A DNA stretch of 64,000 nt, taken from the NCBI RefSeq assembly GCF_000165425.1, contig NW_001798956.1, positions 1,373 to 65,372 of the forward strand. The letters run 5' to 3'. Shown in pieces: positions 5,049 through 10,936 of this stretch (position 1 is the stretch's first letter; each line of letters begins with the position of its first letter). A program made the translations under genes and the position numbers. Under the pieces are notes generated by a model that was not told where the DNA came from, made no database searches, and was given only the letters and a program-made list of their open reading frames with translations. The DNA comes from Paramecium tetraurelia (taxonomy: Eukaryota > Ciliophora > Oligohymenophorea > Peniculida > Parameciidae).

Positions 5049-8000
5049 ATGGAAAATTATCATGTGTTACATTTAATTGGTGAAGGCTCTTTTGGGAAGG
5101 TATATAAGGGAAGATGGAAGAAAAGTAACTAGATGGCTGCTTTGAAGTTCATAAGTAAGAGAGGAAAAACTGAAAAAGATTTAGCAAATTTGAGATAAGA
5201 AATTGAAATATTGAGGAGATTGAAGCATGAAAATATAATATTATTATTAGATGCATTTGAAACGCAAGGGGAATTTTGTTTAGTAACTGAAGTAATTTTA
5301 ATTGTTTCTATTTATTAGTTTGCATAAGGCGAATTATATGAAATTTTGGAGGATGATCATAATCTTCCTGAAAGTGAAGTCAGGAAAATTGCGTAATAAT
5401 TAGTTAGAGCACTTCATTATCTTCATTCTAACAGAATTATTCATAGAGACATGAAACCTTAAAATATTTTATTATCTGCTAATGGAGTTGTTAAATTATG
5501 CGATTTTGGATTTGCAAGAGCAATGTCAACAAATACACAAGTTTTGCATTCCATTAAAGGTACTCCGCTTTACATGGCGCCAGAGTTAGTTCAAGAACAG
5601 CCCTATAATCACACAGTCGATCTGTGGTCATTGGGGGTGATTTTGTATGAATTATTTGTTGGCTAACCTCCATTCTACACTAATCAAATTTATTCCTTAA
5701 TTCAACTTATTATTAAGGATCCTGTCAAGTATCCTGACAACATGAGTCCAGAATTCAAAAGTTTCTTAAAAGGACTCTTAAATAAAACTCCTTCTGATAG
5801 ATTAGGATGGCCAGATCTACTTAATCACCCTTTTATACAAGAGTCTGATTAAGAAAAATATGAAAGGAAAAAAAGATTAGAATAATATAGTTAATGGGCA
5901 GGAGTGGAAAATGAAGTGATTGATAAACGCAAAAGATCCTTAACGCCGACAAGGGATATCATAACTTATGATTAAAGTAAGGACACAAGAGATGTGTCGC
6001 CTAGAAGAATGCCTTGTAATGATGAATATTGGGTTAAATGTGAATAAATCGCTAATGATGTTCAAGGAGCCACTTAATTAAGATGTGACCCTGGATTCTT
6101 AGATAAGCTACTTCAAGTGTTGACTCCTCCAAAGAAACCATCATTGCATTGCGCTTTGAAAGTCTTTGGATAAGTTATAACTAAAGGAAATTAATAAGAG
6201 GGCTTGGATGTTGTGAAAAATTAATAAATCCCTATTTAATTAGTAACTCATGTGAAAAGTATTCTTAAATAAGGTAGTTCTGAGCTGCTATCTGAATTAA
6301 TTAAAACAATAGGTCTTTTAGCCAAAGCTACCTTTGATAAAAATATAGGAATCGATAATGTCTTTATCAAGTTTATTGGAATGACTGCCCAAATTTTAAA
6401 GATTGGATAAAATAATGAATTAATCAACACAATCAAAACTATTGGAATATTTGCTAATTAAGCTAGTCTAAATCCAGTAAGATCTGTGTTATTTTATAAA
6501 GAATTAGTTGAGCATAACTTAGCTTAAGAAACCGCCAAATTAACAAAAAATAATATTACTCTTCACAAATTTGCTACTTAAGTAATTGGTGTATTGATAC
6601 ATCCTATTCATGGGGAAATATTTAGTTTCCCATGGAAGAAAGGATATTCTATTTAAATTTAAAATTTTAATGAAGCTTTGCCATTGTTTGAGTCTTTGAA
6701 AAATCAAATTGTTACTGCATATGCTGATATTGATCATATGAAAATTTATAATGAATAAGATGAATAATAAAATTTAACAAGAATTTCTGTATTAAGAATC
6801 CTATTATAAATGATTAGAGTAAGTAAGGATGTTCACGTTCCTAAAGAGCTGATTAGTTAGGCCCTTAATTCTGATGAGGCATTATTTTAAGGCACTGCTT
6901 TGTTGATCTTAGTTCAATAATATAAAAATAAAAATTAGGAATATCAAGTGAATTTATCATAAGTGATCGAAATCTTTGAAAATAATATTTAGATTAATCC
7001 TATTGTTTCTTTATCTGCAATTTAATTGATTGCTGAATTATTATAATAGGAGACTAATTTTACAAATCAATTACTTAGCTATTTTAGTTAATAGCTTCCC
7101 TATAAATTGTTAAGTGACCTAGTCAATCCAAATAAAAAACAAAATAGAACAGAAGAAATCAGAAAACTAGAAGGTAGTAGTTTTGGATGTCCTAGTTATG
7201 GATTTGTCGATGGAGTCATTACATTATTACAAAAACTACTTTTTAGATATAATAAGGAATAAAAGAAATTAACTGATCTTTTTTAATTATTGGAAAAATA
7301 TGAAATTCATCAATTATTATTTTAGATACTACTAAATATCACAAGCAGGAATGACGTATCTCCAAAAGGATTCGTATCTTTATTGATATTGATTCATGAT
7401 TCAATATACTCTAATTTCAAAGCATTAGGATAATTAATATTTTAGGATAATTCAATTAGGATTTTATGTTCTTTTTTAAAAGAAGCTTAATTACAAAGCA
7501 TCTAAGAATGGCCATCTTCCAGTGGAGGAGGTATGGCTTGTGTAAATGTAATGAGCATTTAAATTATTCGAATCTTCATTTTGGCATTCTAAGAACAAAA
7601 TTGTGATAATGTATTTAAAGAATTGAGTAATTAAGAAATAGTTGCTTTGACATTAAATTTGATTAAATATCTATAGAAGGATCATATATAATTAGTTATT
7701 TCATTCATTTCAAGATTAGTAGGAAATAATGAAGAAGATAAACAGTTTGCATAAAGTTTTGTTTAAAATAATGGATTGGCAATCTTATAAAAATATTAAA
7801 TAATGAGTGTGGATTCAATAAACATCTTGTCTTAATTAGCTAGGATTAGTAAAGATTTTTATCCAAATATACATTCGATTAATTTATACAACGATTTGAA
7901 ATAGCAAATTTAATCTCCTGATTCAAATGTTAGAGCAAAAGTTTGCAATTTAATTGGCAATTTATGTAGACATTCTTCTTTTTTTTATGAACATTTACTC

Positions 8001-8523
8001 AAATTTGATTTAATTAATCTTTGCATCAAATGTTGTCAAGATCCAGATAAACATACTCGTAAATTTGCTTGTTTTGCAGTTGGAAATGCAGGCTTTCATA
8101 GTGATAGATTATATGAACAGCTAAGACCTGTAGTGCCAATGCTGGTTGACTTACTAAGAGATTAAGAAGTATCTTTTTCATTTAAATAAAGGAAAAAACT
8201 AGAGCAAATGCAGCAGGAGCATTAGGAAATTTTGTAAGAAATTCTAATGCCTTAACTAAGGATTTGATTAAACATGGAGCTTTGCATTAATTGCTAGAAT
8301 TAGTGAAAACAGACAAAGGATCTCAACCTACAAGAATATCCTTATTTTCTATAGGAAACCTTTGTGCATATCCTGAGTGCAGAAAAAAGTTTGAAGAATT
8401 ACAAATAAGATAGATAATTGAACTGACTTTAGTAAATTTAACATTAATTTTAAGGCTTAAACTAAGGATTAATAAATATTAAAATATGGTAAAAGAATAT
8501 TAATTAAACTTGATGAGAATTGA
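5049..8523 (+). CDS. STK36: Fused/STK36-type Ser/Thr kinase with ARM/HEAT-like tail
   Basis: About 1,133 residues. The N-terminal ~260 residues are a complete protein kinase: glycine loop [11 protein letters not shown], catalytic HRD at 123-125 in HRDMKPQNIL, DFG at 143-145, and APE in YMAPEL. The rest is a long alpha-helical region with Armadillo/HEAT-like repeats, clearest near the end ([30 protein letters not shown]). This architecture, kinase plus helical repeats, is that of Fused (STK36), which in ciliated organisms acts in central-pair/axoneme assembly. Three introns are inferred: 5292-5318 (27 nt, TAG), 8169-8191 and 8432-8454 (23 nt each, both ending AAG). The last two are needed to keep repeat continuity and reach the TGA at 8521-8523. 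An alternative label is a generic NEK/ULK-like kinase, but the tail favours Fused. Confidence 0.88.
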
Positions 8524-9291: not shown

Positions 9292-10936
9292 ATGATTGAG
9301 AACATCGTGTATTTTAAAATGAAACACGAGGCACAGACATATAAAATTCCAATATAAGGTGTGAATGTGCAATTGAAAGATTTACGTCAAAAAATAAAAG
9401 ATTTTCTTAGTAACAAATTTAAATATGAAAATCTAGAAATGCCATAAGCGTAAAAAGGATAGTCCAATTAAAATTTCGAAGAGCTAGTTATCTATGGAGA
9501 ATTGGAGTAGAACGGAGGATAAGAAAAAGCATTAGGATTGGCTGATAAAGTAGCATAATCAATGTAATATTTGATTAGGTGAGAAATAAATAAACCGTGA
9601 TAGTGGTAAGACAACCGTACCAGTAGGGCCAATCGTTGTGTGAGTCATGCCTATCTGCGAGAAGCACATCTTAGACCCCTTGTTGTTAGAGGAGGATATG
9701 CCAAGGATGTGAAGAACAATTTGTCAAAGTTACGAAGTGTTTCTTTAATGAGCTACAATAATGTCCATTTAAATATGTCAATTATCAAGTTTAGACTATC
9801 AAGTAATAAACTGAGATTTCCAACGCAGAGTTGGAATAATAAATTAAAAATGCTGTTTTTTTTATTGTTAAGAGTAACACCGAACAGAATGTGATTTTGG
9901 CCAAAACTCACGATGTTTGGGCTACTACTCGTCGTAACTTTGGGACTCTTATGGATTAATTTAATAACAAAAAAGTCATATTGATTTTTATTGCTAATCG
10001 TGTTGAAAAGTTTTTGGGTTGTGCTAAGATGAAGAATATACAAGTTCCTCGAGATCCTAAATGGTAATGGTGTGGTACATCTACTATTCAATTGGCTGAT
10101 AATTTTTCAGTTGAATGGTTAAGGAAGGGTACTGTTGATTTTGCCAAATTGTAAGATACGATTAATCCAAAAACAGGCGATCTAGTAATCAGGAGTAAAG
10201 ATTGTTAAGAAGTTCCAGCTGTAATGATCCTATTATTAATTTTATTTATCAGGATATTGGTCAACGTATATGTCTATTGTTTGAATAAATCAAATAAAAC
10301 GACGAAGAATAAGAACCGGTGCCCCAGCCTTAATAAGAGCCTACTCCCAAAAAGGAAGAGATCGAATGGGATTACAATCAAATAATTTGTATATTCAATT
10401 AATTACAATTAATTAAAGCTCCTGCTAATGCAAGTCCAGTTAGAGAACAAACACGGAAATCACCAAGTCGGTCCCCTAGCAACGAGAACATCCCTTCACA
10501 AAATATATAATTAAATGAGGCATAACATGCTTTATTAAATTAAACATTAGCATCGTGGGCATAATAATAATAGATGGAAAATAACTGGAATAAGATGAAT
10601 ATGGGTAAAATACCTGGATTGACAGGAAAGGTATAATATCCACATCCATTTCTATAAAAATATGGTTAAAAACATAACAAAATGGCAGAAGTTTTATTAT
10701 AAATGGTGTAAAAAGAATCTGAAAGAAAGGACAAAGAAAAGAAATCTTCAAGTCATTCTAAAAAGCATAAAAAGAAGAAAGATAGAGATCGTAGTTCCTC
10801 TGAGGAAAAAAGGAGATCAAGTATCATAATTTAAATAACAATAGGGAAAAAAAGGAAGGAACGAAAGGATAAAAAATCAAAGCATAAAAAGAGAAGTCGA
10901 AGCAGATCAAGAGATCATAAGAAAAAAGAGTATTGA
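9292..10936 (+). CDS. DWNN-RING-like-YTH fusion protein
   Basis: About 510-528 residues depending on optional introns. Residues 1-~98 resemble a DWNN ubiquitin-like domain (MIENIVYFKMKHEAQTYKIP ... TVIVVRQP) as found in RBBP6/Mpe1, a pre-mRNA 3'-end-processing factor. Next, C107-x2-C110 ... PCC ... C-x2-C ... CP (about 107-150) matches the RBBP6 RING, but the final Cys of the last CxxC pair is Phe-Lys-Tyr-like, so the finger is degenerate. Residues ~177-310 form a YTH domain with VILIF, FLGCAKM and two candidate aromatic-cage Trp (VWATT; VEWLRKG). The tail is basic, Lys/Arg/Ser-rich, nuclear and SR-like. Introns: 9550-9578 (29 nt, TAG) and 10221-10252 (32 nt, CAG) are required; a 24-nt and a 30-nt in-frame segment may also be spliced. 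The predicted role is coupling m6A recognition to cleavage/polyadenylation; this is inference. Confidence 0.85.

Follow-up and report, generated by a model that had tools for sequence, protein, structure and literature searches.

A predicted Paramecium tetraurelia protein in which a probable DWNN domain and a RING-like finger precede a CPSF30-class YTH domain

The window, meaning the whole stretch of DNA that was analysed, comprises 64,000 nucleotides of Paramecium tetraurelia and corresponds to positions 1373-65372 of contig C3 in a genome of 69 Mb and 231 contigs. As displayed in Table 1, a gene at 9292-10936 starts with ATG, ends with TGA and encodes 510 residues under genetic code 6, in which TAA and TAG specify Gln and TGA is the stop. 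The original prediction of a single gene at this place was thereby upheld, as was the SR-like basic tail that it described, the C-terminus being rich in Lys, Ser and Arg. Another gene lies upstream (approximately 5049-8480) and begins as a protein kinase, presumably Fused/STK36-like, followed by repeats that appear armadillo-like by eye. Automated gene prediction wrongly merged this upstream gene into the gene under study.

Table 1. Positions of the gene and its features in the window
Feature	Position	Strand	Evidence or remark
Gene CDS	9292-9409, 9437-9549, 9579-10220, 10253-10820, 10845-10936	+	510 aa, code 6, TGA stop
DWNN-like (ubiquitin-like) domain, residues 6-90	9307..9617	+	Pfam DWNN profile; split by introns 9410-9436 and 9550-9578
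27-nt intron, GTA...TAG, multiple of three	9410..9436	+	Removal inferred
29-nt intron	9550..9578	+	Splice model; comparison with C63
RING-like finger, residues C98-C139	9639..9764	+	8 Cys invariant in 3/3 copies
YTH domain, residues 170-302	9855..10285	+	Pfam; split by intron 10221-10252
32-nt intron within YTH	10221..10252	+	Splice model; comparison with C63
30-nt stretch, GT..AAAG, open in frame; coding in the 510-aa model	10389..10418	+	Candidate intron
Lys/Ser/Arg-rich (SR-like) tail	10716..10933	+	Sequence; split by 24-nt intron 10821-10844
24-nt intron in tail	10821..10844	+	Splice model

Three loci with this fusion were found by a genome search: the window copy on C3, a copy on C63 that is 93% identical, and a divergent copy on C53 (33%; L025). 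Near-identical pairs were also seen for several other genes examined in this genome. The C63 copy aligns across the full CDS and past both of its ends, and it served as a guide to the introns, which range from 24 to 32 nt. At the site of the first intron C63 has 26 nt, which would break the frame if retained; removal of the corresponding 27 nt from the C3 gene is therefore assumed, and it makes the DWNN match full length. Since this C3 intron is a multiple of three and contains no in-frame TGA, its retention would yield a second protein form in C3. The stretch at 10389-10418, with 30 of 30 bases the same in C63 and no TAG at its end, could be an intron rather than coding sequence. A second intron at 9579-9603 was rejected because its removal gave stops.

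At the level of sequence, the identity of the YTH domain is certain, with a Pfam match of E 5.8e-29 and 101 bits compared to a cut-off of 22.1. The predicted YTH domain with both cage-like Trp residues was borne out, as W191 and W241 align with W377 and W428 of YTHDC1. All 8 of the YTHDC1 positions K361, S362, N363, N367, W377, W428, L439 and D476, which we take to be the m6A-contact residues (aromatic cage, KSN), are kept in C3 and C63. The C53 copy keeps 5 of the 8 and has lost the equivalents of W428, L439 and D476; therefore, it may no longer read m6A. The best PDB matches of the domain are Arabidopsis CPSF30 (72.5 bits) and Toxoplasma CPSF4 (67.3), followed by YTHDC1 (at most 56.8), YTHDC2 (at most 41.6) and human YTHDF1-3 (at most 27.8). 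Comparison with reference domains gave 76.6 bits for Arabidopsis CPSF30 and 33.5 for YTHDF1. Judged by these similarities, the YTH belongs to the CPSF30 class. No CCCH match was found in the fusion protein with Pfam, unlike the CPSF30-YTH proteins.

When 19 YTH loci of the genome were compared with four reference domains, only the three fusion copies (C3, C63 and C53) were assigned to Arabidopsis CPSF30 as the nearest; for those of C23 and C209 CPSF30 was likewise the top scorer, yet with YTHDC1 less than 3 bits behind, and they were left unclassed. These two loci (L024 and L026) each have a YTH-like domain with a very long, charged tail behind it that is rich in RE, KE and RD. The remaining 14 of the 19 are nearest to YTHDF1, a large set for a single unicellular genome.

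The N-terminus is probably a DWNN domain of the RBBP6/Mpe1 kind, as judged by profile comparison. For all three N-termini the top Pfam family is DWNN, the next families having E values of at least 0.06. The isolated N-terminus of C3 matches the entire profile (1-74 of 74) with an E value of 3.9e-5 and 24.2 bits, and those of C63 and C53 match profile positions 1-74 with E values of 7.7e-5 and 5.6e-5. The original DWNN claim thus keeps its best-matching family, but all three copies score under the curated Pfam cut-off of 26 bits. Within the whole protein the match falls to E 0.0011 (19.6 bits), and with the 27 nt retained it becomes 8.3e-4 for the N-terminus alone (profile 1-57 only) and 0.032 for the whole protein. 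The yeast Mpe1 ubiquitin-like (DWNN) domain is described as binding the Ysh1 nuclease beside its active-site tunnel, with F9, D45, R76 and P78 as mutated interface residues (PMC6436931, PMC9380774). R76 and P78 are identical in all 3 ciliate copies; the F9 position is Met in C3 and C63 and Trp in C53, and D45 aligns to a gapped region where it cannot be placed.

A DWNN domain was not confirmed by PDB sequence matches or by structure prediction. Mpe1/RBBP6 was absent from the 44 PDB matches of a profile of the three N-termini (up to E 10), the best being Ran at 0.096. Structure prediction from a four-row alignment gave a mean pLDDT of 39 for the three domains together and 72 for the DWNN part alone, the latter with two strands and one long helix and with the other four models at 50-53; a full ubiquitin-like fold was not seen in either prediction, and models of this quality speak neither for nor against one. 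A Foldseek search with the three-domain model returned 282 matches up to E 10, all of them above 0.001 and with YTH domains at the top. These results, the sub-threshold DWNN score and the missing zinc knuckle would all suit another small domain, one that resembles DWNN and stands before a CPSF30-class YTH in the manner of Toxoplasma YTH2. We consider this reading unlikely in view of the top rank of DWNN over profile 1-74 in every copy, the position of the domain ahead of a Cys finger as in RBBP6, and the hhalign score with Mpe1/RBBP6 of 21.4 compared to a best of 16.6 in 100 column shuffles, though with a probability of 12.7% over 33 columns.

The finger follows the pattern CxxC-x10-CC-x4-CxxC-x9-C-x7-C, with all eight Cys invariant among the three copies. 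The first six Cys have spacing near that of the RBBP6 RING, and the last pair is C-x7-C, not C-x2-C. In an hhalign comparison with the RBBP6 RING its score was 19.5, and 100 shuffles reached 18.6 at most (29 columns, probability 9.2%). No Pfam RING family matched the finger, the one sub-threshold match being Barwin (E 0.011), and RBBP6 was not among the 5 PDB sequences matched by the finger profile up to E 10. It is plausible from the Cys pattern that the finger is a RING; of the predicted RBBP6-type finger, the conserved Cys and a weak profile score remain, without a Pfam RING match.

A ubiquitin-like domain, a RING-like finger and an m6A reader in one protein may also be read as a ubiquitin ligase, or an adaptor, that is guided by m6A and acts outside 3' end processing. 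The RING-like Cys pattern is in line with this, as is the weak similarity of the finger region to TRAF3 (E 0.71), TRIM5 (E 1.4) and TFIIH Tfb3 (E 4.4), and the RING of RBBP6 has led to the description of that protein, too, as an E3 ligase. This explanation is regarded as slightly less likely again than that of an unrelated N-terminal domain; DWNN is said to occur solely in the RBBP6 family (PMC1360078), so that the match of the N-terminus to DWNN suggests the cleavage machinery, as does the CPSF30 class of the YTH.

According to the original prediction, DWNN, finger and YTH are encoded in one continuous frame. This does not hold for the window copy, where the four introns of Table 1 interrupt it, and it does hold for the old paralogue C53, in which the three domains lie in a single unbroken frame. 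C53 is a true fusion. That two adjacent genes were taken as one is therefore excluded for C53 and is very improbable for the window copy as well, which requires introns within the DWNN part and YTH but has one exon (9579-10220) that runs from the final DWNN strand through the finger into YTH, most of which it includes, in a domain order common to 3 of 3 copies.

Between C3 and C63, dN/dS is 0.043 for DWNN (residues 1-95), 0.022 for YTH and 0.178 for residues 303-511, which points to purifying selection on both DWNN and YTH between these copies; the value of 0.80 for the finger and linker derives from one synonymous and three non-synonymous changes and is uninformative. Synonymous divergence is 0.42 in DWNN, 0.02 in the finger, 0.14 in YTH and 0.36 in the C-terminal part. 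Because this divergence is uneven and the 32-nt intron is identical in C3 and C63, the region 9579-10285 of the window looks like a product of local gene conversion with L013.

Other components of the cleavage machinery were sought in the genome. A plant CPSF30 query pointed to four places (C18, C173, C166 and C181), of which C181 and C166 hold the CPSF30 homologues. For the C181 protein (two frame pieces joined with X), CPSF4/Yth1 chains make up 9 of the 15 PDB matches up to E 10, the best at 1.5e-11. Both homologues carry a CCHC-like motif (Pfam sub-threshold for C181, E 0.022), and the frame stops at TGA shortly past it. None of the 21 YTH matches of the genome lies on either contig. A yeast Yth1 query missed CPSF30 in this genome, and inspection of 20 stretches from among 38 CCCH matches gave no multi-finger model like CPSF30. 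The C18 locus was not taken for a CPSF30, as its three CCCH fingers presumably resemble those of ZC3H4/6.

A yeast Mpe1 query found no match in the genome up to E 10. The genome search with the DWNN family missed the three fusion copies themselves and is thus too insensitive, so that it leaves room for other DWNN domains and for a separate RBBP6. It gave two sub-threshold matches, at C124/C212 (E 0.57), which were discounted; the frame of the C124 match contains a TGA. Zinc knuckles were found at 7 places, and the 4 loci that were read all have two knuckles; these were dismissed as RBBP6 candidates since they are SR-protein-like, with an RRM-like stretch ahead in C200 and C189, the ones inspected for it. 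A scan of viral contigs for relatives gave 405 pattern matches, none of which was confirmed. The genome has 16 MT-A70 methylase matches, RNA and DNA writers not being separated in this count.

The reading we favor, to which we give moderate confidence on the basis of sequence, is that one protein combines an RBBP6/Mpe1-like N-terminus (DWNN and RING-like finger), a CPSF30-class YTH and a basic SR-like tail, and would be an RBBP6-like cleavage factor with its own m6A reader. Attachment of the reader to a different subunit of the complex, as the original prediction proposed, is in keeping with a CPSF30-class YTH behind an RBBP6-like N-terminus in all three copies, with the two CPSF30 homologues in which no YTH was detected and with the co-purification of YTH2 and an RBBP6 homologue in Toxoplasma. 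No zf-CCHC Pfam match was found in the protein, and the DWNN match and the finger are separated by residues 91-97 only. The CCHC zinc knuckle, one of the defining parts of RBBP6/Mpe1, and the PSR are absent from between them; the protein is therefore RBBP6-like rather than a textbook RBBP6. More tentatively, the fusion may be the sole RBBP6 counterpart in this ciliate lineage, with m6A read at the cleavage nuclease and not at CPSF30; an alveolate partnership of YTH and RBBP6 would then have become one chain, with CPSF30 homologues that lack YTH.

For such a cleavage factor, the following mode of action can be envisaged. In the nucleus, the DWNN domain would bind to CPSF73 (Ysh1), the endonuclease, in the manner of the Mpe1 ubiquitin-like domain, and the YTH would grip m6A near the future 3' end. 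This grip would hold, activate or license the nuclease there, and a single chain would carry out a task that in Toxoplasma may be shared by two co-purifying proteins, YTH2 and the RBBP6 homologue. Having lost three contact positions, the divergent C53 may retain a scaffold role only. In Mpe1 the zinc knuckle and PSR are linked to RNA contact (PMC9380774), and it may be speculated that m6A reading replaces the contact made by these missing parts.

If true, the link between m6A and poly(A) sites can run via either of two subunits of one machine, and the existence of two alternative subunits would suggest that the link itself is selected for. At least for this ciliate, it would also qualify a review that names Tetrahymena thermophila among the organisms whose poly(A) proteins show no homology to YTH (PMC9778586). 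Furthermore, m6A-guided cleavage would be testable via one gene pair in a laboratory ciliate.

No RBBP6-YTH fusion was found in the literature searched, preprints and most subscription journals being outside its scope. A YTH inside a cleavage and polyadenylation factor is described for the CPSF30-YTH proteins of plants and apicomplexans. In the ciliate, as in CPSF30-L and CPSF4-YTH, a CPSF30-class YTH would be built into a cleavage and polyadenylation factor. In CPSF30-L and CPSF4-YTH the domain comes after CCCH fingers, whereas in the ciliate protein DWNN and a RING-like finger precede it; no YTH was detected in the two ciliate CPSF30 homologues. The order DWNN, zinc knuckle and RING was reported in every eukaryotic genome then examined (PMC1360078). 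The ciliate copies share with RBBP6/Mpe1 a DWNN-like N-terminus followed by a Cys finger, with R76 and P78 kept, and differ in the lack of a zinc knuckle or PSR, the atypical finger and the added YTH.

The Toxoplasma YTH proteins offer a further comparison. The main complex was recovered with YTH1 (CPSF30) of Toxoplasma, while the YTH2 pull-down contained an RBBP6 homologue (6 and 8 peptides), CFIm25 (2 and 3) and an RRM protein, and the homology of YTH2 to CPSF30 is described as limited to YTH (PMC8354455). Against a role in cleavage stands the published association of PfYTH.2 of Plasmodium with translation factors (PMC8092261). Toxoplasma YTH2, here compared by description only, is like the ciliate protein in having a CPSF30-type YTH without CCCH fingers, and it co-purifies with the RBBP6 homologue TGGT1_268900; two proteins there would correspond to one chain here. 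The connection of an m6A reader to the machinery of cleavage is already known, and the novelty of the ciliate protein would lie in its different carrier.
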